From contig CACXIM010000024.1 in NCBI GenBank assembly GCA_902767725.1, forward strand, positions 1 to 46,351: a DNA stretch of 46,351 nucleotides, read 5' to 3'. Below are positions 5,016 through 45,297 of the stretch, one piece after another. The translations under genes were made by a program, and so were the position numbers. The notes below the pieces were generated by a model. That model saw nothing but the letters and a program-made list of their open reading frames with translations. It searched no databases and was not told where the DNA came from. Each line of letters starts with the position of its first letter. Positions within the stretch are counted from its first letter, which is position 1. This stretch comes from an uncultured Bacteroidia bacterium (GTDB lineage: Bacteria > Bacteroidota > Bacteroidia > Bacteroidales > F082).

Positions 5016-5030
5016 TTAAAAAGGAACCTT

Positions 5031-30423: not shown

Positions 30424-31716
30424 TCATTCCTTAATGCATGCTAGAGGGATAATCTTCACGCCATCCGGACGAGTGTAGGCCAACTTGCCGCCTGTAATCA
30501 CTATCAACAGGTCTGGTTCGCGCAAGGGCATCTGTTTCTCCTTTTTATTGTATTCGCGGATAAGACGTTTCAGTTCCAAAAGATGTGATGCGCCATCTTC
30601 AATCTCTTTACTGCCCAACTTACATTCAATCAGTGCATATCGGCCGTCACCCAAATGTAAAACGAGGTCGGACTCCAACCCGTAACGGTCTCTATAATGT
30701 GAAATATGCGAGTCAAAATCAAGTGTATATGCCTTAAAGTCACGGATGCACATCTGCTCAAAGATGAAGCCGAAGGTCTTCAGTTGATTCAGCAACGCCT
30801 CAGGGGTAAGACCCAATGCCGCTACTGCAATGGACGGGTCGACAAAAGAGCGCTTCGGTCCTGTGCGAATGGCGGTCTTGCTACGAATGGCCGGGCACCA
30901 AGCATCAATGTCGCAGACCACAAAGAGTTTTCTCAGTGCCCCGACATAATCGTCAAACGTGGGTTCCGAACACGACACCTCGCCGGAGGCAGCGACATCT
31001 GCAATAAGTGTAGACTTCTTCGACAATGTGGAGATGTTGCGTGCGTATGCGCGTAAAATCATCCTTGTGAGCAGTTCATCGCGCGACACTCCGTCCACGC
31101 GGCTGATGTCATCTGAGCATACTGTCTTGACATAGTTACGTGCCACCAGCAGTTTTGCCTTGTCACTTTTAATATTCACCGTTGCAGGCCATCCTCCACG
31201 GCATCCGCAAAATACCAATTCTTCAACCGACATATCGGACTCAATGCCATCAATATCCAAGTTGGGATTATCGAACAACTCCATCAATGAAATCTTGCCA
31301 TTCGAGTCGCCCGACTCCCACAAACTCATCGGCAGCATGTTTAACTTGGAAATGCGACCCGTGCCTGAGTGGTGAATCTGTGATTTGTCCACTGCATTCG
31401 ATCCGGTCAGGATGAACTGACCTGGCTCAACTCTTTTGTCAACCATAGTCCTCACGGCATCCCACAACACGGGGGCATCCTGCCATTCATCGATCAGACG
31501 TGGCGTAGCACCGTTCAACAACAGGGAAGGTTTCATTGCAGCCGTGGCGAGATACTCATCGCGCATATCGGTGTCTTGCAACTTAATGACACTCTTGGCC
31601 ACCTGCACGGCGGTAGTTGTCTTTCCACACCACTTCGGCCCTTCAATCAATACGGCGCCAAAGGCCTCAAGATGTTCGCGAAGGACGGTATCTGCAGTCC
31701 GTTTCAAATATTCCAT
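30424..31716 (-). CDS. AAA_14/DUF4143 ATPase (copy A)
   Basis: 430 residues. Walker A GPKWCGKTTT (26-35), Walker B RLIDEWQ (73-79), sensor-like QFILTGSNAVDK, then the DUF4143 region (FVDPSIAVAALGLTPEALLN, FGFIFEQMCIRDFKAY) and a PD-(D/E)xK-like end (ESDLVLHLGDGRYALIECKLG). This family is abundant in Bacteroidota and of unknown function; ATP-dependent DNA binding and a nuclease-like fold are known features. Directly upstream of its promoter lie 23-base tandem repeats. A remnant of a related gene is on the other strand at 32091 and a third at 39788. It converges with the transglutaminase gene (8-base gap). Confidence 0.88.
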   Translation of the reverse strand: MEYLKRTADTVLREHLEAFGAVLIEGPKWCGKTTTAVQVAKSVIKLQDTDMRDEYLATAAMKPSLLLNGATPRLIDEWQDAPVLWDAVRTMVDKRVEPGQFILTGSNAVDKSQIHHSGTGRISKLNMLPMSLWESGDSNGKISLMELFDNPNLDIDGIESDMSVEELVFCGCRGGWPATVNIKSDKAKLLVARNYVKTVCSDDISRVDGVSRDELLTRMILRAYARNISTLSKKSTLIADVAASGEVSCSEPTFDDYVGALRKLFVVCDIDAWCPAIRSKTAIRTGPKRSFVDPSIAVAALGLTPEALLNQLKTFGFIFEQMCIRDFKAYTLDFDSHISHYRDRYGLESDLVLHLGDGRYALIECKLGSKEIEDGASHLLELKRLIREYNKKEKQMPLREPDLLIVITGGKLAYTRPDGVKIIPLACIKE

Positions 31717-31741: not shown

Positions 31742-31773
31742 CAAAGTTACTAATAATAAATGGATTATCAAAA
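31742..31773 (-). promoter_or_regulatory. Promoter of ATPase copy A
   Basis: On the minus strand TTTTG (31769-31773) and TAACTTTG (31742-31749) are 19 bases apart, the expected Bacteroidota -33/-7 arrangement. The tandem repeat array begins 4 bases upstream of the -33. Confidence 0.7.
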
Positions 31774-31777
31774 CAAT

Positions 31778-31844
31778 TTTTGCTTTTTGTGGTATTTTAC
31801 TTTTGCTTTTTGTGGTATTTTACTTTTGCTTTTTGCGGTAAAAC
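31778..31844. repeat. 23-bp tandem repeats upstream of ATPase copy A
   Basis: The unit runs from TTTTGCTTTTTG to GGTATTTTAC (23 bases). Copies at 31778-31800 and 31801-31823 are identical and the third (31824-31844) is partial and diverged. The array ends directly upstream of the -33 element. Confidence 0.85.
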
Positions 31845-31846
31845 AA

Positions 31847-31951
31847 CTAATCCATATCCCCCAAGACCATCTCATGATAATCCCGAATGGAGTCCCTATT
31901 TAGGCTTGCATAAAGACGGATATCGCTTTTCAGCTTCCCGATTTCTTCCTG
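31847..31951 (-). pseudogene. C-terminal gene fragment ending RDSIRDYHEMVLGDMD (copy 1)
   Basis: An open frame of about 34 codons without a start, ending LNRDSIRDYHEMVLGDMD-stop, matches the fragment at 32586-32653 at protein and DNA level. Both look like 3' ends of a gene whose body is gone. Parent family not recognised. Confidence 0.45.
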
Positions 31952-31971
31952 TTAGTCTTGGACAATTGATT

Positions 31972-32040
31972 ACAAACAACCGAATAAATCCGCCACAAAT
32001 AACCGAATAAATTCACTATAAACAACCGAAAAATCGAGAA
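31972..32040. repeat. 23-bp tandem repeats upstream of the ATPase remnant
   Basis: Three units of exactly 23 bases start at 31972, 31995 and 32018, each with the core AAACAACCGAATAAAT or close variants (AAATAACCGAATAAAT; AAACAACCGAAAAAT). The sequence differs completely from the arrays at 31778 and 41003 but the position relative to the promoter is comparable. Confidence 0.85.
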
Positions 32041-32045
32041 TTGTT

Positions 32046-32075
32046 TTTGTAATTAAAATAAAATCAGTAATTTTG
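32046..32075 (+). promoter_or_regulatory. Promoter of the ATPase remnant
   Basis: TTTG (32046-32049) and TAATTTTG (32068-32075) with an 18-base spacer, directly downstream of the 23-bp repeats. An ATG (32091) follows but in a frame that stops early. Confidence 0.6.
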
Positions 32076-32090
32076 CAACGAAAACAAAAA

Positions 32091-32537
32091 GATGAAAAAT
32101 CTGCCATCCGAACCAGCGACACCCGCCATTTCGTCGACCCCAGCATTGGCACGGCAGCCCTTGGACTTGGCCCCAGCGACTTAATTAACGACCTTAATTC
32201 ATTTGGGTTGTTCTTCGAAGACCTTGCCGTTCGTGACCTGCGCGTGTTCGCAGAAGCTCTCGATGGCAGACTCTACCATTACCGCGACAGCTCTGGCCTG
32301 GAATGCGATACGGTAATTCACCGCAGAAACGGAACATACGCATTAGTTGAAGTCAAACTGGGGGGCGACAAACTTATAGAAGAAGGTGTAAATGCGCTCA
32401 AGACGCTCGCTACAGCCATAGACACGACTAAGATGCCAAGCCCTTCGTTCATGATGGTGCTGACTGCTGTCGGGCAATACGCATACCAACGCCCCGACGG
32501 TATTTTTGTCGTTCCAATCGGCTGTCTAAAAGACTAA
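32091..32537 (+). pseudogene. Remnant of an AAA_14/DUF4143 ATPase (C-terminal third only)
   Basis: The readable frame (AIRTSDTRHFVDPSIGTAAL ... LVEVKLGGD ... YQRPDGIFVVPIGCLKD) aligns with the last 150 residues of copy A at 30424-31716 (AIRTGPKRSFVDPSIAVAAL ... IECKLG ... YTRPDGVKIIPLACIKE). The ATPase domain with Walker motifs is missing. The promoter and leader are joined directly to the C-terminal part, and the first ATG (32091) is out of frame, so an internal deletion has probably removed the N-terminal two thirds. The PD-(D/E)xK-like end is intact, so a short product from a non-ATG start cannot be excluded. Confidence 0.8.
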
Positions 32538-32585
32538 GTCAGCTCGTTCGAGAACGCAATATCCAAACAATGTTGAGTTCTCCTA

Positions 32586-32653
32586 TCAATCCAAATCTCC
32601 TAGGACCATCTCATGATAATCGCGGATGGCGTCTCGGTTCAGGCCCTTTTTGA
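32586..32653 (-). pseudogene. C-terminal gene fragment ending LNRDAIRDYHEMVLGDLD (copy 2)
   Basis: Matches the end of the fragment at 31847-31951 over about 18 codons with the same stop position; homology stops abruptly at the leucine. The two fragments flank the ATPase remnant and its promoter on either side. Confidence 0.45.
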
Positions 32654-32683
32654 CCATGACTTGTGACTATGATCATGACTATT

Positions 32684-32915
32684 TCAACGGGCATAAAACT
32701 CCACGCATTTAAACAAGTGTAAACTATATGCAGGAGTAACATCTTTCAATGTCGTAGGGTTGGTCATAGTCATGGTCAATGGCCATGGTTGAATGGCTTT
32801 CAGCTCGGCGGCATCGGTGATGGTGGCCTTCTTTTCTTGCAGCTTCTTGAGGGTCTGCTTGGTTTCGGCAAGCTTTTGCTTGGCGGATTTGATCTGGTTG
32901 GTGTAAAGCTTTGCC
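32684..32915 (-). pseudogene. Possible remnant encoding a coiled coil
   Basis: In one minus-strand frame KLYTNQIKSAKQKLAETKQT and a following KKLQEKKATITDAAELKAI form a convincing heptad-rich helix, then run into a TCATAGTCATGG-type repeat. There is no start codon. It directly follows the PD-(D/E)xK gene. Parent not identified; codon composition is GC-richer than the nuclease gene, so it belongs to a different layer of sequence. Confidence 0.35.
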
Positions 32916-32919
32916 GTAT

Positions 32920-34431
32920 TTATTTTTTCTCCACAACCTCAATGTTGTAGTTTTCTTTTGCAAATTTCGCCAATTCGTCAAACTCATCCTTGAGCCACAT
33001 CTTCATGCTTAGCACTTTCTCTTTTTTATTTGACCCTTCTTTATTTATCTTTAAATAATAAGGCGTGTCACAACCATAAAAATCCCATTGAAGATACTTT
33101 TTCCCATCAATCTTTTCATCTATTGAGGCTTTATAGTAGGTCGCGTTATCTGCTGGACCTTGCTTTCTAGCTTTGCCAATATCATCACACCAATAAAACA
33201 AATATTGATATGGGTATTTTTCTTGCTGAATGATGCTTTCAATAGGAAAAGCTTTACGAATTTCTTCTATAGTAGCATCTTTATGATTATCGAGCCACGC
33301 CTTAAAAATATAATATGAAGCAAGGCTTTTTGGCACAGGCTTGGCATTAATTGGAGTTTTACATTTTTTAGCATAAACCCAATACTTCGTATTATCTCGA
33401 TTGGTTTTATGCATGCCCAATAATGTTTTTATTGTTTCCAAATCATCATTTAGTTTTTGCAACGAGGAATAAAGAATAAGTTTAAGCAATGGTTCGTTGG
33501 CATCCCAGAAGGAAGACAAACGATTTTCATCTAATTGATTAAATTCCCGGTATGAATCATATCTTTCTTTGTAAAACTCTTTTAGTAACTTTATCCTTCC
33601 TTTGTTTTTAACAAATATGACATCATCCAATAAAACACCATGTTTCTCGTATAAACTATATGTTTTCTCCTTGATCGAAACAGATAATGCTAAAACGGTA
33701 TCCTTATCCTCAAACGTAGTTCCATCTCTTTTCTTTTTTTTAATTGATTGTCCTAGGTTTATTACATAATCTTCAATTAGAGTACACGCACCAGACGGCG
33801 AAATTATCTTAAAAGGTAATGGATTGATTACATACCTAAGCATCTCGTCGTAAGTAATTTTGATAAAACTATCACATACACACCTTGCATTCGTATCGGG
33901 AGATAGAAACACACCCAAAATATCATGGTTTTCATATTTAACTTGTTGCGAAGCCCATCTATAATAAGTATCTGTTTGTTTATCATGTTCTTCTGTGTAA
34001 ATCTTGTTTTCAATAATAACAAGAACTTTTTTATCAATGGTATTACTATCTGATTTATAACTATAACTAAAATCAATAAGAATATCTATTCGCCCCTTCT
34101 TCTTTTCAAATTCCGCTTGTTGTTCTAAATCAACGGTCATACTTTCAATATTATAATTGCCATTCAAGAAGGGAGTCTCAAATTTAGAATCTCTATTTGC
34201 CAACAATCTCATAAAACATTTCAGCGGCTCTTCGCCCAACCCATGGTTGCCATTCGAATCCAATAACCAAGCAAGAAAAGCACTATGACAATTCTCATTT
34301 CTCTCAATTTTCAGCACATTGAACAATGTGATCTTGCCGTAAGAGGCTTTCAATTCCTGAAACAAAGGATCATTGTAAAAGTTAATTATTTCGCTTTTGA
34401 TTGCGTCCAAATCTGTCTTATTGTCTCCCAT
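32920..34431 (-). CDS. PD-(D/E)xK nuclease superfamily protein
   Basis: 503 residues. The N-terminal part has NENCHSAFLAWLLD (residues 46-58) and the nuclease core RIDILIDFSYS ... KVLVIIENKIYTEEHDKQTD, giving Asp at about 116 and Glu-x-Lys at 141-143, as in the PDDEXK_4 family. The C-terminal 200 residues (TKYWVYAKKCKTPINAKPVP; YLQWDFYGCDTPYYLKINKE) are a separate domain I do not recognise. The gene is strikingly AT-rich with AAA/ATA/AAT codons, unlike the core genes, which suggests horizontal acquisition. A defence role is plausible from family and neighbourhood but not shown. Confidence 0.78.
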   Translation of the reverse strand: MGDNKTDLDAIKSEIINFYNDPLFQELKASYGKITLFNVLKIERNENCHSAFLAWLLDSNGNHGLGEEPLKCFMRLLANRDSKFETPFLNGNYNIESMTVDLEQQAEFEKKKGRIDILIDFSYSYKSDSNTIDKKVLVIIENKIYTEEHDKQTDTYYRWASQQVKYENHDILGVFLSPDTNARCVCDSFIKITYDEMLRYVINPLPFKIISPSGACTLIEDYVINLGQSIKKKKRDGTTFEDKDTVLALSVSIKEKTYSLYEKHGVLLDDVIFVKNKGRIKLLKEFYKERYDSYREFNQLDENRLSSFWDANEPLLKLILYSSLQKLNDDLETIKTLLGMHKTNRDNTKYWVYAKKCKTPINAKPVPKSLASYYIFKAWLDNHKDATIEEIRKAFPIESIIQQEKYPYQYLFYWCDDIGKARKQGPADNATYYKASIDEKIDGKKYLQWDFYGCDTPYYLKINKEGSNKKEKVLSMKMWLKDEFDELAKFAKENYNIEVVEKK

Positions 34432-34572
34432 AATTGTTGTTATTTTTGTTGTCTATTTCTTTCCTTTCATTTTAAATTTCATCCTTCCCTTTCGTTTTTC
34501 GCTCGCTGTGACTGATTGTGAGTGTCCAGCAAAACCAAAAGAAAAGTCGATTCGCGTTGCTTCAAGGTTATA

Positions 34573-36093
34573 TCAATCGGCGGGGCATACGAGGCGTACA
34601 GAGAGACCATAGTGTGGATGGTCGTTATAATACAGGAAAAGGGCACCGCCTCTGAACCAAATATGGCCTGCGGAAGTGTAACCGCCGCCGCCGCCCGATG
34701 CCGACCAGTAGGCGCCGTAGGAACCGGTAATGTAGACTGAAGCCCCGTCTTGACGACAGCCTGCAGCAGGCAGGAAGACTGCTCCGGCATTCTGCAGGAT
34801 GTCCCACTGCGAGGCGGAAATCACATTTCTGTTAAAGTCCACTCCTATTTGGTTCGCGTCGTTCAAGTGATAGGTACTCGCACTCCAATTATCGGGCAAA
34901 AGGACTACTCCGTTCACGCCATTCACCTGAGCCATGGCGAAGAGGATATCGCTCGGCGTGACTCGCTCAATGAACACATAAAACCATTCTCCGTTAGCCC
35001 CACCCGTCAAAGTACGCCACTGTTGTGTCGCATTACCGCCATTGCTAATAGTGTTGCTACCCCAGTCCGTGAAGGAACTATAATTGTTATCGAATGTAGA
35101 AGTTAGGGTCGGATTGTCTCCAGTTCCCCAACCGAAAAGATCAATCCAACCGCTGTAAGTAGAGGAAATGTTGTTATTATCACTGCCATTAACAGTCCCT
35201 CCCGGATCACCAGATTGTGGATTTTGGGAGCCAACATAATCCCATTGATTCTCGGCAAAACGCCAAATGTTAGTGCTGGCTTGATATTGCAAGTTGCCTT
35301 GGGAAAAACGAACCTTATCCCCATTCTCATTGATAGTAAACAAGCCGTTGACGGCACCAGTTGGCACATCACCACTTCCATTGCCCGAAAGTGTAACAAA
35401 CTCCTTGTCTAAACCATAAACTGTTCCCACCTCGTTTATAGCGTAAGCGCGAACATGATAGGTGATGTTAGCCTCCAAATTCTCCATAACTGCAGTGAAA
35501 GCACCTATTCCCGAACCTGTGGCAATATGGTTGTCGCCCGAAGTAGGATTCTCGTTAGTACTCCAGCAGATACCGCGCTCGGTCACTTCGGCGCCACCCT
35601 CACTGGTTACCTCACCACTACAAGATGCGGAATGAGCTGTAATTCCTGTAACTTCTCCCGTAATGACCGTAGGCAATTCGGCACCAGGCGGTGTCGGTGG
35701 TCCTGGCGGCTCCGGCGTATCAAAGGCTTGCGTACGGAAGGTCTTTTGCTCCGAAAGGTAAGCGTTGCCACTCTTGGAAAAAAGTTCATAGTAATAGCAA
35801 TACAACGTATCGCTCAACAAATCATTAAGGGTTAACTCGAAAAAGGTATCTTTCTTTGTCATTTCGACGGCTTCGAATTGTTGGGCGTTGCCGTTGGCAT
35901 CGGCAGGACAATAGTGAAACACCACACGGCTGAGTTCCGCATGGTCTGTCCGTGTGTATTCAATATGAACATCCTTCATGCCTACCGTTACAATTTCATC
36001 ATTGCCATCCCCGATTTCAGGATGGACTTCCTTGCTCTTGGTGCAGGCTGCTAAGGTCACCAAAACGCAGATTATTATTGATAGTTTTTTCAT
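34573..36093 (-). CDS. FISUMP-domain lipoprotein, paralogue A
   Basis: 506 residues. Lipobox LVTLAACTKS, an FN3-like region, a Pro-rich linker (TPEPPGPPTPPGA), then the repeat module around GGAEVTERGICWSTNENPT to YHVRAYAINEVGTVYG, and a C-terminal domain with NGLFTINENGDKVRFSQGNL, WIDLFGWGTG and VVLLPDNWSAS ending YWSASGGGGG ... LSVRLVCPAD. This is the Fibrobacter-succinogenes-major-paralogous type of surface module with a C-type-lectin-like end. It is the last gene of a four-gene minus-strand operon. The upstream paralogue B is close to identical in its framework and very different in the segment before SVRLVCP, pointing to fast-evolving binding loops. Confidence 0.82.
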   Translation of the reverse strand: MKKLSIIICVLVTLAACTKSKEVHPEIGDGNDEIVTVGMKDVHIEYTRTDHAELSRVVFHYCPADANGNAQQFEAVEMTKKDTFFELTLNDLLSDTLYCYYYELFSKSGNAYLSEQKTFRTQAFDTPEPPGPPTPPGAELPTVITGEVTGITAHSASCSGEVTSEGGAEVTERGICWSTNENPTSGDNHIATGSGIGAFTAVMENLEANITYHVRAYAINEVGTVYGLDKEFVTLSGNGSGDVPTGAVNGLFTINENGDKVRFSQGNLQYQASTNIWRFAENQWDYVGSQNPQSGDPGGTVNGSDNNNISSTYSGWIDLFGWGTGDNPTLTSTFDNNYSSFTDWGSNTISNGGNATQQWRTLTGGANGEWFYVFIERVTPSDILFAMAQVNGVNGVVLLPDNWSASTYHLNDANQIGVDFNRNVISASQWDILQNAGAVFLPAAGCRQDGASVYITGSYGAYWSASGGGGGYTSAGHIWFRGGALFLYYNDHPHYGLSVRLVCPAD

Positions 36094-36200
36094 TATCCTT
36101 GGTTTTTACAAATTGTTTATCACTATATGTTAAGTTTTGTCTTGACGAAAAAAACACTCGCAACAGGCAAAAAGTCGATTTGCGTTGCTTCAGGAAATAA

Positions 36201-37727
36201 TTACTCACCGGGGCAAACGAGACGTACAGATTGACCAGAATTACGGAAACTCCCGCCACTCCCGCTACTCGTTCCGAGGGAGGTGACAGTAAAATAAGCG
36301 GTGTATGCGCGACTGCTATCGTAACTCGAGCTGGCTGACCAGTAGTTGCCTCTGAAATTAGGATTATAGACCGAAGTCCCTTGGCGAAAGCCTGCAGCAG
36401 GCAGGAATACCGCTCCAGCATTTTGTAAGGAGTTCCACTGTGAGGCTGAAATCACATTGTTGCCGAAACTTGCTCCTATTTGGTTCGTGTCGCTCAGATT
36501 ATAGGTACTCACGCTCCAGTTATCAGGCAAGAGGATTACCCCATGCACGCGGTTCACCCGAGCCTTGGCATAGCGGATGCCACTTGTGGTGTTCCGCGTG
36601 TTGAAGATATAGTCCCATTCAGACTTTGTCAATGCCCTCCATCCGCTGTTCTCGGTGTTACCTCCATTTGATATTGCATTATAACCCCAGTCCGCTTGAC
36701 CTGTCTGGTCGTAGAGGTTACAGGTCTCGCAACCGTATGCGTAGTAGTAATCGTTTGTTCGGTCTGTGCTCCATGGCTGGTAGCATTCCGCACCATGGTT
36801 GTAACCGCTCGTACCCCAGCCAAAAAGGTCGATCCAACCGCTATAAGTAGATGAGATGAAGTTATTATCACTGCCATCAACAGTTCCCCCAGGATTACCT
36901 TCAGTTGTGGACTGAGCACCCACATAATCCCATTGGTTTTCAGCAAAACGCCAAGTGTTAGTGCTCGCTTGATATTGCAGGTTGCCTTGGGAGAAATATA
37001 CCAGGTCGCCATTCTCATTTATGGTGAACAAACCGTTTATCGCGCCTTGGGGAGCATTACTTAACGCCACAAACTCCCTATCCAAACCATAAGCAGTGCC
37101 GACCTCATTTGTTGCATAGGCACGAACATGATAGGTAGTATTGGCTTCCAAACCGTTCATCATGGCTGTAAACACACCTGTTCCTGTACCAGCAGTCATA
37201 TGGCTGCCATCCACTGTCGGGTTTGAAGTTGGGCTCCAGCAAATGCCGCGCTCGGTCACTTCGGCACCGCCGTCGTTGGTCACTTCGCCACCACCTTTGG
37301 CAGAATTGGAAGTAATCTCTGTCACTTCTGCGGTAACTACAGTAGGCAAAGTAATCGTCACATCAGAACCTTTTGTCTTGAAGGTCTTCACCGCCGTCCT
37401 CATTGAATTGAAACCGTTATGGAACTCATAGTAATAGCTATAAGTAGTGTTCTCCCTCAAGCCTGTCAGTTCCACATAAAGCGTGTTCTGCACCACGCGC
37501 ATCTCGGCAGAGGTAAAGGCATTTTCATTCTCACCTTCACCATAAAAGAGATAGGCTTTCTTCAAAGTGGCGATGTATTCGTAGTCACACTGGATGTTGG
37601 CGGTAGTCGAGCCAACTGTTACCAGGTCGCGCTCCACATCCACATATTTCAAATTCACCTCAGGGGTCTTCTTGCAGGAGGCCAATGCCACCACAAGAAC
37701 CATGATCATTATGCTTATCTTTTTCAT
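36201..37727 (-). CDS. FISUMP-domain lipoprotein, paralogue B
   Basis: Start at ATG 37727 (MKKISIMIMVLVVALASCKK), 508 residues, lipid-modified Cys in ALASC. Same layout as paralogue A: FN3-like N-terminus, GGAEVTERGICWSPTSNPT to YHVRAYATNEVGTAYG module, and C-terminal VYFSQGNLQYQAST, WIDLFGWGTSGYNHG, VILLPDNWSVSTYNL, YWSASSSYDSSRA ... SVRLVCPGE. An insertion with paired cysteines (YGCETCNLYD) is absent from A. A 25-base segment after the stop codon is shared with paralogue A, so the pair arose by duplication including the 3' flank. Confidence 0.82.
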   Translation of the reverse strand: MKKISIMIMVLVVALASCKKTPEVNLKYVDVERDLVTVGSTTANIQCDYEYIATLKKAYLFYGEGENENAFTSAEMRVVQNTLYVELTGLRENTTYSYYYEFHNGFNSMRTAVKTFKTKGSDVTITLPTVVTAEVTEITSNSAKGGGEVTNDGGAEVTERGICWSPTSNPTVDGSHMTAGTGTGVFTAMMNGLEANTTYHVRAYATNEVGTAYGLDREFVALSNAPQGAINGLFTINENGDLVYFSQGNLQYQASTNTWRFAENQWDYVGAQSTTEGNPGGTVDGSDNNFISSTYSGWIDLFGWGTSGYNHGAECYQPWSTDRTNDYYYAYGCETCNLYDQTGQADWGYNAISNGGNTENSGWRALTKSEWDYIFNTRNTTSGIRYAKARVNRVHGVILLPDNWSVSTYNLSDTNQIGASFGNNVISASQWNSLQNAGAVFLPAAGFRQGTSVYNPNFRGNYWSASSSYDSSRAYTAYFTVTSLGTSSGSGGSFRNSGQSVRLVCPGE

Positions 37728-37740
37728 TTTCTTTCGGTTT

Positions 37741-38574
37741 TTAACGGTTTTCAAAACTATAACCCAAACCAACCCTACCTTCAAAGATGCTGAAGTTGGT
37801 CGTCACGGCATCCAACGAGAGGACGAAGCCTCCGAAGCGGAACATCATACCCGCCGAAACATCCACACCCACGGCGGAATAACCGCTGTTGCGTACCCAA
37901 CGGTCATCCAAGGTCTTCCACGACAGCGAGCGGTTGCCGAAACCTAAGCCTGCCTTTAAGTACATCATGTCATTCAAGCGCATCACGCCGCCACCCATGA
38001 CGGATAGCACGGTCTTGGCGTATTCGTCCTTGTAAAAAGGCAAGTCCTCGCCCACAAAGCCCTCAGCATCGCTGACGGCGGCAGGAGTCAGACCAGCAAA
38101 GTTGAAGCCGCTCATCACCGAGGCAAACCAACCGAACTTCTGCACTTGACCGAAAGTAAATCCGACTGAGGGATTCTCGGTATTGGTATATGCACCATTC
38201 AAAGTGGAGAAAGTAATTTTCGGGATGCGCTTTGGTCTGGGTGTCTGCTGCTTTTCCTCGGTGACAAACTTAAACCGAATCTCCGGATAGTCACCATAGC
38301 CCAAGTCCTTGAAAGCCTGCCAGCGAATCGTTTTGTTCTTTCCTACAGGAACGATCTTGTTGACCATACCCGTCACTTTCATCGTGTCGGTATAGTGTTC
38401 TCCGTCATCAATGGAGATCAGGAGCTTCACATCAGAACGCACATTCAAGTCGTATCTGATGGTCACAATCTTATCTTCCTGCTTAGCACGGATGTTGGTC
38501 ACATGGTCTTGTGCAACGGCTATTTGCGAGCCTAAAAGAAGGCTTAGCAATACTAATAAGGTGTGCTTCTTCAT
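37741..38574 (-). CDS. Secreted outer-membrane beta-barrel-like protein
   Basis: 277 residues with signal peptide ending AVAQ. Residues about 20-110 form a beta-sandwich (VTNIRAKQEDKIVTIRYDLN, LLISIDDGEHYTD), and 125-277 have alternating amphipathic strands (FGWFASVMSGFNF, AGLGFGNRSLSW, MMFRFGGFVLSLDAVTTNF) ending GRVGLGYSFENR, typical of a small outer-membrane barrel. Its ATG overlaps the stop of the upstream gene (ATGA), so translation is probably coupled. It may anchor or export the FISUMP lipoproteins downstream; this is a guess from position. Confidence 0.72.
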   Translation of the reverse strand: MKKHTLLVLLSLLLGSQIAVAQDHVTNIRAKQEDKIVTIRYDLNVRSDVKLLISIDDGEHYTDTMKVTGMVNKIVPVGKNKTIRWQAFKDLGYGDYPEIRFKFVTEEKQQTPRPKRIPKITFSTLNGAYTNTENPSVGFTFGQVQKFGWFASVMSGFNFAGLTPAAVSDAEGFVGEDLPFYKDEYAKTVLSVMGGGVMRLNDMMYLKAGLGFGNRSLSWKTLDDRWVRNSGYSAVGVDVSAGMMFRFGGFVLSLDAVTTNFSIFEGRVGLGYSFENR

Positions 38575-39359
38575 GGCTTCACGGTTTTTTCGGGTTCAAC
38601 ATCAGCAAAGGCACCGCGAATGATCATTTCAACCGAAACGCGGCGATAGCCTCCGCCTTTCTCCTTGTTCTCCACGGCACAACTCAGGAAAACATTCTCC
38701 GTGTGCTTCAACGGCTCCACCTGGGTTTTCAGAAAGTCTTCCACACCTTGGGTACGCAAGAAAGCCAACTGCCCGTTGGTGGTCACACCTGTTTTTTGTG
38801 TCACAGTCATGTTATATGGAGATCCGTTCAATGTAATAGGCTTGTCGGTAAAGTCACCGTATTCTCCCAAGTAGGCAATCTTGTTGCGAATAGGTGTACC
38901 ATCTGTGGCACCCGTGATTTTCACGTCCACCTTTGTTCCTTCTTTCAGATAATCGACAAGGTCTTTCTCCAACTTGTTTTTCAGGAAACTGCACATCAAC
39001 ATACAAGCATTGGAGTTTTGGATGGTGTACTTGCCAAGAGCATAGTCGTCGGCGGCATCGGCCACCACAAGGGTCTCGTAGGACACCGAAACGACGAGAT
39101 TGTTGTCCTGAACCTCTGTCTGGACTTCAATCTTCACATTGTCGGAAACTTTCTGTCCTTCAGCCAAATTGGCTTTCATTGCAGCCAGTTCCTCCTGCCA
39201 GTTGCGCTGGCGTTCCTCGTTTTCCTTCTGGATTTGTTCCTTCGACTGTTCTTTTTTGAGGTATCGGTAATGGAACCGTTCCGACACCGTTTCCACTTCT
39301 TGTCCGAAACACATTGCAGACAGGGAAATGAGAATCGTTGTAAATAGAAATTTCTTCAT
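38571..39359 (-). CDS. Secreted protein of unknown function, first gene of FISUMP operon
   Basis: 262 residues, signal peptide MKKFLFTTILISLSAMCFGQ. A charged helix (YLKKEQSKEQIQKENEERQR) is followed by mixed alpha/beta sequence (VSDNVKIEVQTEVQDNNLVV, LEKDLVDYLKEGTKVDVKIT, SVEMIIRGAF). No family is recognised; the part around DYLKEGTKVDVKITGATDGT resembles OmpA-neighbouring periplasmic domains only loosely. It heads a minus-strand operon with a barrel protein and two FISUMP lipoproteins, which suggests a shared envelope role. Confidence 0.7.
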   Translation of the reverse strand: MKKFLFTTILISLSAMCFGQEVETVSERFHYRYLKKEQSKEQIQKENEERQRNWQEELAAMKANLAEGQKVSDNVKIEVQTEVQDNNLVVSVSYETLVVADAADDYALGKYTIQNSNACMLMCSFLKNKLEKDLVDYLKEGTKVDVKITGATDGTPIRNKIAYLGEYGDFTDKPITLNGSPYNMTVTQKTGVTTNGQLAFLRTQGVEDFLKTQVEPLKHTENVFLSCAVENKEKGGGYRRVSVEMIIRGAFADVEPEKTVKP

Positions 39360-39489
39360 ATTGGGTTGTTTTGGTGTTTAGTTGTATGCTCAATTCTGTA
39401 TTAGATTCATCTTCTATTTTCCACCCGGCAAAGAAACGCACTTCCACGAAAACTTTTCAGGTTCATGTTGGTTCATATTGAGTCGTTTC

Positions 39490-39521
39490 TTGCCAGCACA
39501 AAAAAAAGCGTGATACTTTTG
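39490..39521 (+). promoter_or_regulatory. Promoter of the candidate 6S-like RNA
   Basis: TTG (39490-39492) and TACTTTTG (39514-39521) are separated by 21 bases. The box is followed immediately by the hairpin-rich region and no ORF, which points to a non-coding transcript. Confidence 0.55.
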
Positions 39522-39680
39522 CATCCGCTTATCGAGGTGTTTGGCATACCTAAAGAAACCGAATGTTGAAAAGCACACGCTATTCGTGTAACTTTCAGCA
39601 TCATTCTGGTTTCTTTATCTCAAATCGCCAAACTTTCGATAAGACAGAATATTGCTAATCGTCTGATTATGTGATGTATA
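39522..39680 (+). ncRNA. Candidate structured small RNA (6S / Bacteroidales-1-like)
   Basis: The region folds as one long interrupted hairpin: CTTATCGA (39528-39535) with TCGATAAG (39636-39643); GTTTGG with CCAAAC; TAAAGAAACC (39551-39560) with GGTTTCTTTA (39608-39617), ten perfect pairs; TGAAA (39567) with TTTCA (39593); and an apical ACACG/CGTGT. Internal loops separate the helices, as in 6S RNA, and the Bacteroidales-1 motif has been suggested to be the 6S RNA of this order. The identity is inference; the structure is visible. The 3' end is uncertain; a weak hairpin (CGCCTTGCGGCG) lies near 39690. I see no protein-coding gene in 39360-39787. Confidence 0.55.
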
Positions 39681-39787
39681 TTGCTTCTAATGCGCCTTGC
39701 GGCGGGTTATTCCATAGGCTTTTCTTTTAGTTTTACGCTCCAAAATTAGGGAATTTTTGAGAAAAGCAAAAGAAAATTGAGGATTTC

Positions 39788-40972
39788 TCAAAAAAGGTTG
39801 GCCAACTTGAAAGTAAGAAACTCCTCAACGGGTATCCCGCCGCTGCCCACAATAAACGAATGGTCAGGATGAAATTGATCTCTGAACTTTCTAAGGCCTT
39901 CGTTTTCGGTACGGCGGCCACTCTTCACCTCTATTGCGACACATTTCCTATTGTACTCAATGACGAAATCGACCTCATCATTACGCTCACGCCAATAGTA
40001 AGTCTTATACCCATCTTCATCGGCTTGATTGAGCAAATATGCCCCGACTGCCGACTCCACCCAGCGTCCCCATTCTGTAGGTGTCGTAAAAACCTTTTCA
40101 AAAGCAACTCCCGATTGTGCCGAAAGCAATGCGGTGTTGTAAACCATAAGCTTGGGGACCGAATTGTACTTGCGCGCCGCATCGTTGGCATATTTATGCA
40201 GTCCGCAAAGCAATCTCGACTCATCCAATGTGGTCAAGTAATTGGCTAATGTGGTCACATTGCCCGCGTCCTGCAGTTGACCAAGCATCTTGTTCAAAGA
40301 CAACTCCTTGCCCGAATACACACAGCCCAAGTCAAACAATTGACGCATCAATTCAGGCTTATAGACTATCTTTGTCGACAGGACATCCAGTTCGATAGCT
40401 GGAGCGATAATGCTTCCCTTGACATACCGCTGCCAACGCCGATAATCGTTTATCAAAAGCGCTCCGCCAGGATAACCGCCATAATACATATACTGGTTGA
40501 CATCGAAGCCAAAAGCTTCTCGCATTTCCAAATAGCTCCAATGCGACATCCTAATGATTTCAAACCTACCGGCAAGCGACTCGGTAAGTCCGTCTTTTAG
40601 CAACAGCCGAGAAGAGCCAAGCAGCACCACTTTTATCGGAACATCATTGAATGTGTCCATATCCCACTCTTTTTTCACGGCTTCGCTCCAGTTGCCAATC
40701 TTGTGGACTTCATCAATGACAAGAAGATATTCCGAAGCATGCGTAATTTGCAACTTGGCACGTGCCGTTGACCATGTTTCTCCAATCCACGCTATGTTAT
40801 CTGAAGAAACGCTGTCAGCCGTGACAAACAAATACGGAATGTCGATTTCCTGTAACACCTGTTTTACCAAGGTCGATTTCCCCACCTGTCGTGGTCCAGA
40901 TATCACCTGAATAAAATGCCGAGGCTCCTTTATGCGAGACATTACTTCATCAAATTGCTGTCTTTTATACAT
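39788..40972 (-). CDS. AAA_14/DUF4143 ATPase (copy B)
   Basis: Start at ATG 40972 (MYKRQQFDEVMSRIKEPRHF); the frame extends eight codons upstream but that would cross the predicted transcription start. 394 residues: Walker A GPRQVGKST (26-34), Walker B YLLVIDEVHKIGNW, VVLLGSSRLLLKDGLTESLA, then DUF4143 with YNSVPKLMVYNTALLSAQSG and the nuclease-like end NDEVDFVIEYNRKCVAIEVK. It is a different subfamily from copy A. Upstream are four repeats with a strict 22-base period embedded in the promoter. Function of the family unknown; autoregulation by binding these repeats is my inference. Confidence 0.9.
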   Translation of the reverse strand: MYKRQQFDEVMSRIKEPRHFIQVISGPRQVGKSTLVKQVLQEIDIPYLFVTADSVSSDNIAWIGETWSTARAKLQITHASEYLLVIDEVHKIGNWSEAVKKEWDMDTFNDVPIKVVLLGSSRLLLKDGLTESLAGRFEIIRMSHWSYLEMREAFGFDVNQYMYYGGYPGGALLINDYRRWQRYVKGSIIAPAIELDVLSTKIVYKPELMRQLFDLGCVYSGKELSLNKMLGQLQDAGNVTTLANYLTTLDESRLLCGLHKYANDAARKYNSVPKLMVYNTALLSAQSGVAFEKVFTTPTEWGRWVESAVGAYLLNQADEDGYKTYYWRERNDEVDFVIEYNRKCVAIEVKSGRRTENEGLRKFRDQFHPDHSFIVGSGGIPVEEFLTFKLANLF

Positions 40973-40993
40973 AATATATTGATTATTCGGCTG

Positions 40994-41025
40994 CAAAGAT
41001 AAACAAAATTCTCAAATCTACAAAA
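40994..41025 (-). promoter_or_regulatory. Promoter of ATPase copy B
   Basis: TATCTTTG (40994-41001 on the minus strand) and TTTTG (41021-41025) with a 19-base spacer. One repeat unit occupies the spacer and the next abuts the -33. Confidence 0.7.
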
Positions 41026-41082
41026 CAAAATTCTCAAAAGTTGATTACAAAATTCTCAAATCCATACTACAGAATTCTCAAA
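41003..41082. repeat. Four 22-bp-spaced repeats at the promoter of ATPase copy B
   Basis: ACAAAATTCTCAAA starts at 41003, 41025, 41047 and (with one change, ACAGAATTCTCAAA) 41069, a period of exactly 22 bases with unrelated 8-base linkers. This spacing puts each copy on the same face of the helix about two turns apart. Confidence 0.88.
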
Positions 41083-41156
41083 AGTGCAAAAAAAAGACCT
41101 TGACAAACATGTTGCCGAGGTGCATCCAAACACGACAAGTTCAGTTGTTTAGTTCC

Positions 41157-41197
41157 GAGATAATCCAAAGCCAAGTGACTTTGGACAAGGTTATCTC
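41157..41197. other. Isolated hairpin in the 41.1-41.4 kb gap
   Basis: GAGATAA (41157-41163) and TTATCTC (41191-41197) enclose CCAAAG (41165-41170) and CTTTGG (41179-41184) around an 8-base loop. The rest of 41083-41395 is AT-rich with no ORF, and I see no clear promoter. It may be a terminator or part of a small RNA. Confidence 0.4.
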
Positions 41198-41395
41198 ATC
41201 ATAGATAAACCACATCCTAACTAATGTAAAATTACAGAAAAACAAATATTTACATCATATCACATATAAAACCTTTTTTGCCACTTTTTTTCTACGGCAA
41301 AGAAACAGGAAATCAAAATGGCAAATCGGTACTTTTCGGTACTTGTTTTGCGGACTTGGTATAGGATATATCTAACTTCATACAAGAAACATATA

Positions 41396-41432
41396 GAAGG
41401 GGCGTCTCTTGGATTTTAGAAGACGCACCTTC
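41396..41432 (-). terminator. Hairpin downstream of the BspA-like gene
   Basis: GAAGG-x-GCGTCT pairs with AGACGC-x-CCTTC around a loop of about 13 bases, 50 bases after the stop codon of the 41483 gene. The T tract after it is weak. Confidence 0.5.
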
Positions 41433-41482
41433 TTCATGATCACATGGCTTTTCTTGCCTATGTTTTGTCAAAAAATGAACTC

Positions 41483-42040
41483 CTAATAGGTAACAACGCC
41501 ACCATCAATTTTGAATCTTTTATCTTGATTTGGAACCGCCATATTTGCTGGAATTCCAGTATCTATTCCCGACACTTTTACCTTGGTTTTACCGAAAGCA
41601 TACGAATCTATTACCGGACGAGAAGCCGATTTGAAAGAAAGAGTCGATAACGAGAAACAGAAAATGAAGGCCTGCTTCCCAATGTGGAGAACGCTGGCGG
41701 GAATTGCGACAGACTTTAAGCCAGAACATTCTCGAAAAGCCTCTTCGCCTATTTCGATGATACCTTCAGGTAAAGTGACCGCAGTAATCTCACTGTTTTT
41801 GAAAGCGTATTTTCCAATGTGTGTCACGGAATAGGCGTTGCCGTCATATTCAACTTTTGCAGGAATGACGATTTTCCCAGAATAGATAGCGCTGTCCTGA
41901 GGACAGGACGTAACGGTTACATCCTTTAGATTTGGGTTGATTTTGTAATAGATACCGCCTTTTGCGAAATCACTTTGGCCGAACATGCTTGTTGCGACGA
42001 AGAGCAAACATACAAGCATAGAGATAATTCTTGTATTCAT
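41483..42040 (-). CDS. BspA-type leucine-rich repeat protein (short)
   Basis: 185 residues with signal peptide ending MFGQ. After a beta region (GGIYYKINPNLKDVTVTSC; GKIVIPAKVEYDGNAYSVTH) come LRR_5 units (HIGKYAFKNSEITAVTLPEG, IIEIGEEAFRECSGLKSVAI, HIGKQAFIFCFSLSTLSFKS). These are surface or secreted binding proteins. It lies 18 bases after a longer paralogue and looks like the last gene of the cluster. No sorting tail or lipobox is visible. Confidence 0.8.
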   Translation of the reverse strand: MNTRIISMLVCLLFVATSMFGQSDFAKGGIYYKINPNLKDVTVTSCPQDSAIYSGKIVIPAKVEYDGNAYSVTHIGKYAFKNSEITAVTLPEGIIEIGEEAFRECSGLKSVAIPASVLHIGKQAFIFCFSLSTLSFKSASRPVIDSYAFGKTKVKVSGIDTGIPANMAVPNQDKRFKIDGGVVTY

Positions 42041-42058
42041 AATAATTCACGTTTTAGG

Positions 42059-42805
42059 TTAGTAGACAACTGTATTTTTCCTTTTTTTCGGGTTCGAATT
42101 TCTGCTCGAACTATTGGTTCTCTTACTATGCGCCTTAAAATAAGGGGTCTTACTAAAAGCATAATCAGTGTATTTCATATTGCTATTTGCAATAGAAACC
42201 GTTTGCAGCTTCGAGCATCCGACAAACGCATCATCCTTGATGGATTCAACATTTGCAGGAATTTTGACGGAAACCAAAGCGGTGCAATTACTGAATGCGT
42301 TTTTTTCAATTTGCTTTACACCAGTTCCAAAGGTAACACTCGTCAGAGACGTACATCCTCTAAAGCATTGTCCGGTTATTTTTTCCACATTATTCGGAAT
42401 GATGATTTTGGCAAGTTTGGTACAATCCGAGAAAGCAAAACTCTCAATCGAAGTTACAGAATTGGGGAGGGTTATCGATTTTAAATTATTGCAACTGCTG
42501 AATGCACCAGTACCGATGAATTCGAGCGTGTTCGGTAATTTGATTGATTTCAGGCAATCGCAATGACCGAAAGCTCCAGCTTTGATGCCCACAACACTAT
42601 AAGTGTTTGAGTCCATTGTCGTCACTTGTTCCGGGATAACAATGTCGCCATAATAGTCAAATCCATCGATTTTAGCGACAACGACTTTTGTCTCATCCTG
42701 TACTTGATAGTTAATGCCTTCCACGATGAATTGATTTTGAGCCATAGATTCTTTGGCACAAAAACAGGAAAACAAGATTCCCATGATAATTAGTTTCTTT
42801 TTCAT
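42059..42805 (-). CDS. BspA-type leucine-rich repeat protein
   Basis: 248 residues. Signal peptide (MKKKLIIMGILFSCFCAKES region), then INYQVQDETKVVVAKIDGFD and at least five LRR_5 units, each with an AFxxCxxL pattern (GAFGHCDCLKSIKLPNTLEF, GAFSSCNNLKSITLPNSVTS, FAFSDCTKLAKIIIPNNVEK, CFRGCTSLTSVTFGTGVKQI, AFSNCTALVSVKIPANVESI). The C-terminus is basic. The 10-base gap before its ATG is preceded by a 29-base sequence also found before the 43602 gene. Confidence 0.82.
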   Translation of the reverse strand: MKKKLIIMGILFSCFCAKESMAQNQFIVEGINYQVQDETKVVVAKIDGFDYYGDIVIPEQVTTMDSNTYSVVGIKAGAFGHCDCLKSIKLPNTLEFIGTGAFSSCNNLKSITLPNSVTSIESFAFSDCTKLAKIIIPNNVEKITGQCFRGCTSLTSVTFGTGVKQIEKNAFSNCTALVSVKIPANVESIKDDAFVGCSKLQTVSIANSNMKYTDYAFSKTPYFKAHSKRTNSSSRNSNPKKRKNTVVY

Positions 42806-42813
42806 TTTCTAAA

Positions 42814-42842
42814 CCCTAATTCCGTGTCGGGCGCAACCTTTA
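42814..42842 (-). promoter_or_regulatory. Conserved 29-base leader, copy 1
   Basis: Minus-strand core GGTTGCGCCCGACACGGAAT ends 8 bases before the BspA gene ATG. The identical 29 bases occur at 43958-43986. Confidence 0.7.
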
Positions 42843-42919
42843 TTTATGATTAAAACAACCTTGCAAAAGATAAATTAATTCAATACTACTACAAATAGTG
42901 TCTCCATTTTTTCCAGAAT

Positions 42920-43216
42920 TCAATTGGCCAAGTTTTGGTACACCATATTGAATAGAAGCATGACTGCATCCACTACAAGTGCAATCAGTATCGCTTTTTT
43001 GCCGACAAGCCCCGTTAACTTCCAAAGGCATACCAACAACAAAGTAATTGCCAATGGCAACAAGGGTGGGAACATCTTCATGCTGTCCCAAACATGTCCT
43101 TGAAATAGTAAAGCAACCGCCCGTTGGCCTCCGCATACCGGGCACGAAACCCCAAATACCTGTTTGTAGAAACACGGCAGCATGTTGGCCAAAAGCCATT
43201 GGGCGGTTAGTATCAT
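42920..43216 (-). CDS. DUF2752 membrane protein
   Basis: 98 residues with the DUF2752 signature PVCGGQRA (FGVSCPVCGGQRAVALLFQG) and two membrane segments (FPPLLPLAITLLLVCLW; ILIALVVDAVMLLFNMVY). Function unknown. It starts 12 bases after the CCC-motif membrane protein, a pairing common in Bacteroidota. Confidence 0.85.
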   Translation of the reverse strand: MILTAQWLLANMLPCFYKQVFGVSCPVCGGQRAVALLFQGHVWDSMKMFPPLLPLAITLLLVCLWKLTGLVGKKAILIALVVDAVMLLFNMVYQNLAN

Positions 43217-43228
43217 AGCATTGGGTGA

Positions 43229-43573
43229 TTAGAAATCCAACAAATCTTCAAACAAGTCAGAGTCAAAGAGCAAAAATGATCCGCCCAAAAACAAGGCGGA
43301 GATAATGCCCCATATTATTGCAATGGCTCCCAAAATCACACCTATAATGGATAGGATGCGACCTGCATTCAACGCTCCAAAGTTAACATATTTCATCGGA
43401 TTCATTCGATACATCATCATAGGTTTCTTGGACAACGCCAAGCCAATAATGCCACAGATAAAGCCCACAAATACGCATCCAAATAGGATTGAACAGATGC
43501 CCAAAATGAGCACGGCAGTGGCATTCGGCAACTTTTCGAATTGTTGGTTGGTTGTCAGAGGTTGGTTTTCCAT
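43229..43573 (-). CDS. CCC-motif / DUF4190-like membrane protein
   Basis: 114 residues with two long membrane segments (TAVLILGICSILFGCVFVGF ICGII, and ILSIIGVILGAIAIIWGIIS) separated by a conserved-looking loop KKPMMMYRMNPMKYVNFGAL. Ends with acidic SDLFEDLLDF. Similar architecture to the C-terminal half of the zinc-ribbon protein at 17738-18391. It precedes DUF2752 in the same operon; function unknown. Confidence 0.8.
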   Translation of the reverse strand: MENQPLTTNQQFEKLPNATAVLILGICSILFGCVFVGFICGIIGLALSKKPMMMYRMNPMKYVNFGALNAGRILSIIGVILGAIAIIWGIISALFLGGSFLLFDSDLFEDLLDF

Positions 43574-43601
43574 AGCTTTTCTTTTTTAGGAGGTCTACTT
43601 T

Positions 43602-43949
43602 TTAATCCATCAAAGCTTTCGTCATCTTCTCAGTGATCTTGGCATAGCGCTTCAACTGGGCAGCAGACATGTCGTCTTCAGCGTCCTCCAGTTGTTCAGC
43701 AAGCTTCTGTGCCTTCTCTGCCAGTTTCACATACTCGCCCATGGCCGTCATGTCACCTTTCATTGCCTTTTTGTAAGTATTGATGTACTGGTCGACATAC
43801 TTCTCGTATTCGTCAAGAAGCTTGTCCCACTTGTCACCAACAAAAAACTCAGTGGCATCCTTGGCCGGCACCACATTGGCCGAAGCAGTGAAGTAGAATC
43901 CTCCCATCAGGAAAGCCATAACAGCAGCAGTCATAATTGTCTTTTTCAT
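43602..43949 (-). CDS. Small secreted helical protein (DUF6591-like)
   Basis: 115 residues with signal peptide (MKKTIMTAAVMAFLMGGFYFTASA). The mature part is entirely helical and charged (KWDKLLDEYEKYVDQYINTY, AEKAQKLAEQLEDAEDDMSA, YAKITEKMTKALMD), resembling the DUF6591 group of Bacteroidota. It follows the kinase gene by 107 bases and carries the shared 29-base leader. Function unknown. Confidence 0.75.
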   Translation of the reverse strand: MKKTIMTAAVMAFLMGGFYFTASANVVPAKDATEFFVGDKWDKLLDEYEKYVDQYINTYKKAMKGDMTAMGEYVKLAEKAQKLAEQLEDAEDDMSAAQLKRYAKITEKMTKALMD

Positions 43950-43957
43950 TTTATTAT

Positions 43958-43986
43958 CCCTAATTCCGTGTCGGGCGCAACCTTTA
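43958..43986 (-). promoter_or_regulatory. Conserved 29-base leader, copy 2
   Basis: Identical to 42814-42842 (core GGTTGCGCCCGACACGGAAT) and at the same distance (8 bases) from the ATG of the 43602 gene. Confidence 0.7.
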
Positions 43987-44056
43987 AATGTTTAACAGAA
44001 TGTTTACGGCTGCAAAATAAGATAATAAAAACGGAATCGGTTTGGTTCATGTTGGT

Positions 44057-45217: not shown

Positions 45218-45228
45218 TTATTTTTTGG

Positions 45229-45236
45229 CAAAAGTA
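45229..45236 (-). promoter_or_regulatory. -7 box TACTTTTG for the kinase gene
   Basis: On the minus strand TACTTTTG lies 11 bases before the kinase ATG, giving a very short leader. Confidence 0.5.
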
Positions 45237-45297
45237 CGAAAACTATTATAAACCGTTTGGGCTTTTCTATAAACATCATTCGTCCATTGAAGTCAGA

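Follow-up and report, generated by a model that had tools for sequence, protein, structure and literature searches.

Clade-linked tandem arrays adjoin the promoters of AAA_14/DUF4143 ATPase genes and are probably read by the proteins that they precede

Results

Genes and arrays in the window

The window (the whole stretch of DNA analysed, 46,351 nucleotides) carries two intact genes, copy A and copy B, that join an AAA_14 ATPase to a DUF4143 domain, and a remnant between them (Table 1). In copy A the Pfam scores were 60.9 bits for AAA_14 and 97.5 bits for DUF4143, and a helix-turn-helix is predicted at about residues 233-260, while the listed reading frame of copy B, 39788-40996, opens at a TTG at 40996 and the ATG at 40972 is its likely start. 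Both copies match the PADLOC model PDC-S01 (E 3.6e-60 for copy A and 1.7e-177 for copy B), with AAA_14 and DUF4143 in one protein, whereas the remnant retains only the C-terminal part: it covers positions 71-159 of the 160 in the DUF4143 model, and alignment with its intact relative L145 showed that about 835 bp, comprising the ATPase and the helix region, are gone.

Table 1. Coordinates of the genes, arrays and promoter boxes in the window
Feature	Position	Strand	Description
Copy A gene	30424..31716	-	AAA_14 ATPase and DUF4143 (PD-(D/E)XK-like), 430 aa
Copy A -7 box	31742..31749	-	TAACTTTG; 40 bp to start of last core
Copy A -33 box	31769-31772	-	TTTG, read from sequence
Copy A array	31777..31840	-	Full 23-bp units 31790-31812, 31813-31835; proximal core 31777-31789; TRF 31778-31840, period 23, 2.7 copies, 97% match
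Remnant array	31972..32040	+	Units 31972-31994, 31995-32017; weaker third 32018-32040; TRF 31972-32035, period 23, 2.8 copies, 80% match
Remnant -33 box	32046-32049	+	TTTG, read from sequence
Remnant -7 box	32068..32075	+	TAATTTTG; 50 bp from last core
Remnant open frame	32073..32537	+	DUF4143, C-terminal part only
Copy B gene	39788..40972	-	AAA_14 and DUF4143 (Pfam), subfamily distinct from copy A
Copy B -7 box	40994..41001	-	TATCTTTG; read from sequence
Copy B array	41001..41082	-	22-bp pattern matches 41003-41024, 41025-41046, 41047-41068; weaker 41069-41090; TRF 41001-41082, period 22, 3.7 copies, 78% match

An earlier note on this DNA had described tandem arrays of 22-23 bp at the promoters of copy A, copy B and the remnant, and TRF found all three, which score highest of its 11 listed rows for the window. 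The note placed the arrays at or upstream of the -33 element, which is right as to their presence at every promoter but fails for copy B, whose promoter-proximal unit lies within the core promoter, between the -33 and -7 boxes as read by eye. It also held that the three sets of units share nothing obvious; copy A, however, falls in a single clade with L145 and L126, which are relatives of the remnant, and a weak common frame appears when their units are registered. The statement that an ATPase gene stands behind each array was wrong for the remnant, and three specific autoregulators are thus unsupported because the remnant has lost the ATPase and helix region, so that its array is an orphan; the core idea, that a protein reads its own array, finds support in the enrichment and covariation given below. 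The remnant's spacing between last core and -7 box is the same in L145, likewise 50 bp.

With up to three mismatches allowed, the full units of copy A and the first two units of the remnant have no match in the assembly (80% complete) away from their own promoters, and B-like units gave four extra matches as against six for a reversed-pattern control. A regulon was therefore rejected. A CRISPR reading was set aside because the units abut without spacers.

Enrichment and period of the arrays

A strong array (TRF score of at least 80) lay within 200 bp upstream of 64 of 161 family genes, as the earlier note had anticipated for homologues, compared with 2 of 158 neighbouring genes, 5 of 149 downstream flanks and none of 805 dinucleotide shuffles. 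The count excludes family genes shorter than 350 aa or with less than 205 bp upstream, duplicates, and 31 neighbours close to the promoter of a family gene; before this cleaning of the controls the figures were 71/169 for the family and 12/182 for the controls. Of the two neighbours positive at a lower cut-off, one (L142, score 79) is the family gene's own second array. The upstream regions are AT-rich (34% GC, 38% in the controls). The array recurs 3' of the gene in 3 of 65 genes; systematic downstream arrays were rejected on this low count, and the remaining downstream scores resemble those of mismatched pairs.

The array period goes with the protein clade, as delimited by hand, and is 23, 22 or 32/33; clades V (2/21) and IIIb (0/7) are mostly without arrays. 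Within the subfamily of copy A a period of 23 scored best in 108 of 109 genes, compared with 4 of 109 after shuffling. It was again best in 10/10 plasmid and phage-collection records (27-69% identity; Collinsella, Prosthecochloris and Lentilactobacillus are among them), which were taken from 15 listed matches, 8 of them plasmid records out of 238 and 7 the full set from the phage collection. Arrays are kept next to the gene under four phylum labels, Bacteroidota, Bacillota, Actinomycetota and Chlorobiota. In copy B's subfamily the best period was 22 in 21 of 24 loci, copy B included, out of 28 loci given (L061, L063, L066 and L068 were unscored, with no tblastn match at 1e-20).

Promoter geometry in copy A's subfamily

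In copy A's subfamily the array adjoins the core promoter of its gene at a fixed geometry. A chain of unit cores was found in 107 of 109 genes and a -7 match at 25-70 bp from the last core in 78, of which 47 have a distance of 40-41 bp, and the remaining genes are mostly displaced by about 11 bp (Rayleigh p ~5e-5 at period 11, for the 84 genes whose -7 match lay 13 bp or more away). Moreover, among the Bacillota-labelled loci the distance to a sigma-70 -10 box was 41-42 bp in 8 of 11, and the array geometry held under two promoter types. Scored against a 12-position consensus, three of the Bacillota promoters reached 12/12 and four 11/12; these seven, being near consensus, should need no activator. 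As with the proximal unit of copy B, the units of several relatives overlap the core promoter or follow it, as judged by eye.

Covariation of unit and protein in copy A's subfamily

Unit sequence and protein vary together among the relatives of copy A, another expectation of the earlier note, and do so down to one residue of the predicted DNA-reading helix. The relatives collected were the best 80 of the matches listed, and four of six viral loci were used. The set compared leaves out L214, L223 and L239 (upstream too short) and L203 (length filter; array not seen), and L227 is below the score threshold (7.8) in it. Protein and unit distances are correlated (Mantel r 0.68, p 0.001), which taken alone also reflects shared ancestry. 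Against a tree-based null, residue 252, within the predicted helix-turn-helix, and unit position 11 ranked first of 6348 pairs (z 9.8). The best column fell within 233-260 for eight of the ten core unit positions (5-14). Residue and base changed together in independent pairs (means of 200 pairings): D with G gave 5.6 same, 0.0 opposite and 2.4 with no difference, N or G with C gave 6.3, 0.0 and 1.7, and P, T, V or A with A gave 5.9, 0.1 and 1.0, respectively.

The resulting rule was correct for 23 of 30 held-out genes, against a baseline of 11/30, a hold-out not fully independent because the pair had been chosen using all 109 genes; formulated post hoc, it is broken by 11 of the 109 genes and by 3 of 9 new plasmid or phage-collection records. 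A general rule from residue 251 to position 8 was rejected, with only 9 of 30 held-out genes correct. Other pairs were also high under the tree-based null, namely residue 344 with position 1 (second, z 8.7) and residue 282 with position 23 (z 7.9). Many columns throughout the protein covary with unit positions 19-23, a pattern that we read as clade structure surviving the null. Active insulation of paralogues was likewise rejected: the 36 within-genome pairs differ on average at 9.7 positions and pairs between genomes, taken over the same protein-distance range, at 10.5.

Pfam named no helix-turn-helix in the predicted region, and a PDB sequence search for a solved structural relative gave no credible match; the helix is therefore assigned from sequence pattern and covariation. 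The unit letters shift with this predicted helix, which points to a protein that reads and controls its own switch. For copy B the case for self-reading is weaker and comes from the period of its subfamily, the residue-base test having covered copy A's subfamily.

Discussion

We presume, with a probability of about three in four, that an AAA+ ATPase carrying a PD-(D/E)XK-like domain binds the array at its own promoter, autorepression being the most likely outcome. Each intact gene would encode an ATPase linked through the predicted helix-turn-helix to the nuclease-like domain, and each intact protein would occupy its own promoter array. Each unit is probably read by a single protomer, with the N-terminal end of its recognition helix making the contact (residue 252 to position 11). 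Spaced at 22/23 or 32/33 bp, roughly two helical turns or three, 2-7 units may seat several protomers side by side, held at a fixed rotational position beside RNA polymerase. We further suppose that loading is cooperative and that the nuclease-like domain acts as the effector. The signal that lifts repression might be, for example, the ATP state, titration or invading DNA, and array, promoter and gene would move as one cassette in which array and helix diverge together.

The sign of the regulation is the point on which the nearest alternative differs. A site centred near -42 is the classic location for an activator, and a protein beside the -35 could contact RNA polymerase and activate its own gene, making a switch of positive autoregulation. 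The last unit indeed stands at a distance like that of class II activators and shifts by approximately whole helical turns, so contact with polymerase fits better than simple blocking. However, the seven near-consensus promoters speak against a need for activation, and the proximal unit of copy B, together with units of several relatives that by eye fall within the core promoter or on its downstream side, sits poorly with it. We consider activation possible but unlikely; judged from where these units fall and from the strength of the promoters, repression is the most likely sign.

A quite improbable explanation is that the gene is a one-gene mobile element and the array its site of recognition or exchange, the nuclease-like domain cutting or joining at its own repeats and the array travelling along. 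Several observations agree with mobility: in 12 of 15 relatives of copy A elsewhere (L161-L175) homology extends no further than the array edge and the stop codon, in the other 3 it stops just inside the gene start, further pairs of relatives have similar ends, copy number runs from 0 to 50 per genome inside one genus, and the occasional recurrence of the array 3' of the gene and the short duplicated sequence on either side of the remnant would also fit. Yet a fixed promoter geometry with helical phasing is unnecessary for mobility, arrays on both sides of a gene are rare, and no clean empty site was found for the remnant; comparison with L160, from which the remnant and 13.9 kb of DNA are absent, showed a duplicated flank and no clean junction. 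A separate host regulator binding the arrays is very improbable, since nothing specific favours it, the arrays covary with the gene's own residue 252, with a prediction that holds in held-out genes, and the array is kept beside the gene in records of four phyla. Chance repetition of low-complexity, AT-rich DNA, for which the lower GC content would speak, is refuted by the shuffle and period controls and has next to no probability left.

Beyond binding of the array by its own protein, we entertain tentatively, and as an improbable extension, that these proteins are self-addressed ATPase-nucleases, whose private iteron-like array would be operator and self-address at once; titration of the protein by incoming DNA, or competition for it (by a rival copy that bears an identical array, for instance), might then release both expression and nuclease action, and a simple residue-to-base code would predict part of each member's array. 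Through its array a family member gains a candidate DNA ligand, a promoter ready for reporter work and a specificity rule open to test, which brings assays of binding, regulation and release within reach. The family reaches 50 members in a genome, many with their own operator, and could be a natural collection of repressor-operator pairs.

Iterons, the Rep binding sites of plasmid origins, are tandem direct repeats of about 17-23 bp to which a protein encoded next to them binds side by side, often regulating its own gene. The present arrays resemble them in being tandem direct repeats (~22 bp), but the protein is AAA+ and nuclease-like rather than a Rep, the array lies at the promoter, and paralogues vary in unit sequence; Pfam gave no Rep match in the gene behind the array, which is AAA_14/DUF4143. 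Autoregulated helix-turn-helix regulators have a private operator at their own promoter and a specificity that evolves with the recognition helix. Here, similarly, the array adjoins the gene's own promoter and the unit covaries with the predicted recognition helix at residue 252, whereas an ATPase-nuclease-like protein contains the predicted reader, and an array with a clade-linked period serves as the operator.

The literature searched, with subscription journals and preprints mostly outside its scope, contained no published account of these arrays, and its available portions held no experimentally established function for PDC-S01. TT_P0211 of Thermus thermophilus has the same domains, AAA_14/DUF4143 with helix-turn-helix motifs noted, and is tabulated under expression changes with plasmid DNA present; the available text of that paper does not mention promoter repeats (PMC4406477). 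PDC-S01 is a single-gene phage-defence candidate of PADLOC. It is described, in the available part of one study, as an ATPase fused to the PD-(D/E)XK superfamily and as the fourth commonest defence across prokaryotes, validation pending for most such candidates (PMC12988326); in that of another, it ranks first in frequency among the individual loci of bovine rumen genomes (PMC13356809). An antiviral role is a candidate function of copies A and B. The available text of these two papers mentions neither operator arrays nor DNA specificity, whereas the genes analysed here come with arrays, a predicted DNA-reading helix and a residue-to-base rule.

Tandem arrays at AAA_14/DUF4143 promoters

TRF recovered the tandem arrays of 22-23 bp that the earlier note had described at three loci of the window, with periods of 23 at copy A, 23 at the remnant (a truncated third locus) and 22 at copy B, and these three had the top scores among the 11 TRF rows listed for the window. 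The source genome (3.06 Mb, 153 contigs, 80% complete) has 12 DUF4143 matches, 10 of them above the Pfam cut-off; a match was present in 37 of the genomes of 40 relatives (above the cut-off in 35), and the number per genome ranged from 0 to 50 inside one genus. A published table of expression in the presence of plasmid DNA (PMC4406477) includes a Thermus DUF4143 gene, and the available portions of that account and of the PDC-S01 accounts (PMC13356809, PMC12988326) make no mention of arrays.

AAA_14/DUF4143 loci of the window and adjoining genes
Feature	Position	Strand	Assignment
Transglutaminase-like protein, 874 aa	27791-30415	plus	Weak Ig-like match; beside copy A 3' end
Copy A	30424-31716	minus	AAA_14 + DUF4143 (Pfam); match to PADLOC PDC-S01 (single-gene phage-defence candidate)
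Remnant	32073-32537	plus	DUF4143 C-terminal half only
PDDEXK_4 protein	32920-34431	minus	Matches PADLOC candidate PDC-S26; adjoins copy A
Copy B	39788-40972	minus	AAA_14 + DUF4143 (Pfam); PADLOC PDC-S01 match
BspA-type leucine-rich repeat protein	41483-42040	minus	Adjoins copy B
Reading frame	42059-42805		Neighbour of the BspA-type protein

In a family sample of 159 loci, whose members were called by an iterated profile (183 frames), TRF arrays (score at least 80, period 15-60, 200 bp upstream) were found at 64/161 family genes versus 2/158 neighbouring genes (Fisher p 4e-20), 5/149 downstream flanks of family genes and 0/805 dinucleotide shuffles, so that the enrichment upstream of homologues proposed as a check was indeed present. 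The best periods clustered at 22-23 and 32-33. When arrays were scored by autocorrelation (at least 13; 96/161 family genes versus 1/805 shuffles) and clades were cut by hand on the protein tree, the period went with the protein clade: copy A's clade had arrays in 30/30 genes, every one of period 23, copy B's clade in 2/2 (period 22), a small clade in 4/4 (period 22-23), and two large clades in 21/34 and 29/38, all of period 32 or 33, while the remaining clades had few or none (6/17, 2/21, 2/8, 0/7). The clade with 2/21 had inverted repeats in excess (7/21 at a score of at least 10 versus 1/42 shuffles); in two of its loci, L014 and L019, one inverted repeat across the -7 box was seen by eye in place of an array. 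Across an enlarged sample of copy B relatives, the best period was 22 in 21/24, copy B and its own-genome paralogue counted.

For copy A's subfamily, the best 80 of the relatives listed from named genomes, which were Bacteroidales and MAGs labelled Lachnospiraceae, Oscillospiraceae, Clostridia and Verrucomicrobia, were taken together with 6 from viral contigs. TRF found an array in 68 of the 81 loci (77 from genomes, 4 viral) whose upstream sequence was long enough, and a direct period-23 score was passed by 109/110 genes (30 from the initial sample, 80 of the added relatives) and by 10/1090 pair-shuffled upstreams. Among periods of 15-40, 23 was best in 108/109 genes, in 4/109 after shuffling, and in 10/10 outside records from plasmids or phage collections (27-69% identity), including Collinsella, Prosthecochloris and Lentilactobacillus plasmids.

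Position of the arrays relative to the promoter

Arrays in this subfamily have 2-7 units, and the last core (unit positions 5-14) begins 40 or 41 bp from the -7 box TAnnTTTG in 47/78 genes; the remaining distances fell for the most part into the ranges 27-33, 50-53 and 60-64, and three matches lay at 36. Distances outside 39-41 recurred at intervals of roughly 11 bp, which was among the top-scoring of seven candidate periods between 9 and 13 (Rayleigh p about 5e-5, weighted for redundancy, not ancestry). Among 11 Bacillota-labelled loci, a sigma-70 -10 box lay at 41-42 bp in 8 and at 56 in 2, and one had a Bacteroidota-like box at 41; L212, one of the 8, had a promoter score at chance level, as did the Verrucomicrobia locus, at 41. 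Because the Bacteroidota -7 and sigma-70 -10 distances match, the array has the same placement under two promoter types. The units had been placed at or just upstream of -33; by our reading of the boxes, the proximal unit of copy B is instead located between -33 and -7.

Covariation of unit and protein

With the units of all genes set in register, protein distance and unit distance in copy A's subfamily were correlated (Mantel r 0.68, p 0.001), although shared ancestry alone could yield such a correlation. Once the remainder of the protein was controlled for, the best single-column predictors of the unit were 233 and 234, then 252, all in the segment that separates the ATPase from the nuclease-like part; protein windows 51-65 and 146-160, outside this segment, scored too. 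Across 109 genes, residue 252 and unit position 11 paired as P-A 39, D-G 23, N-C 10, T-A 8 and S-T 4. Under a tree-based null, in which unit letters were simulated along a tree built without columns 226-262, 252 x 11 ranked first of 6348 pairs (z 9.8), followed by 344 x 1 (8.7, outside the helix), 233 x 20 (8.6), and 251 x 8 and 282 x 23 (both 7.9). Thus the covariation of repeat with protein anticipated earlier was recovered in this subfamily. The best column fell within 233-260, the predicted helix-turn-helix, for 8/10 core positions (exceptions 9 and 13); positions 19-23 covaried with columns throughout the protein, which we read as clade structure.

Independent pairs for 252 went in the wrong direction in 0.0, 0.0 and 0.1 of 7-8 pairs, with a median p of 0.03 because few pairs exist; the counts for residue 251 were not significant. 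Trained on 79 genes from named genomes or viral contigs, the 252 rule gave position 11 correctly in 23/30 remaining genes (best constant 11/30), a hold-out not fully independent since the column pair was chosen on all 109 genes, and in 6/9 outside records with the residue covered. A 251 rule failed in the 30 held-out genes (9/30).

The remnant and possible mobility of the cassette

Aligned to its intact relative L145, the remnant is that cassette minus about 835 bp: window 31849-32100 matches L145 -250 to +2 (90%) and 32097-32641 matches +837 to +1382 (98%). The array and promoter were kept while the ATPase and helix region were lost, and therefore the remnant cannot be an autoregulator, which reduces the three autoregulators of the earlier note by this one. 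A 45-60 bp sequence, the reading-frame end LNRDSIRDYHEMVLGD, flanks the remnant on both sides (window 31851-31895 and 32586-32644) and also occurs around L145.

Among the matches listed for 15 copy A relatives elsewhere (L161-L175), homology spanned exactly from stop codon to array edge in 12 and stopped just within the gene start in 3. The same array lay before and after the gene in 3/65 genes (L118, L142, L143), and L160, 97% identical to copy A at the locus common to both, is without window 31951-45802 (13.9 kb, remnant and copy B included). This pattern fits a cassette that spreads; no clean junction for it was found when the remnant locus was compared with L160. Elsewhere, L135 has an extra array unit and promoter 1.6 kb upstream, with no family gene directly behind in the stretch examined, and L175 has a copy-B-like gene and array (4338-5513, 68% DNA identity to window 39907-41082) beside its copy A relative.

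Proposed mode of action

Judged from sequence, the simplest account of the covariation would be that the protein binds its own array. Direct repeats about two or three helical turns apart, fixed to the promoter, suggest that several protomers would sit side by side on it. We favour autorepression of the own gene, because the proximal unit of copy B overlaps the core promoter and because in seven Bacillota promoters 11 or all 12 of the 12 consensus positions are matched; the protein may instead activate its gene, as a site centred near -42 would allow. Asp facing the C opposite G, and small hydrophobic residues facing the T opposite A, are ordinary recognition chemistry.
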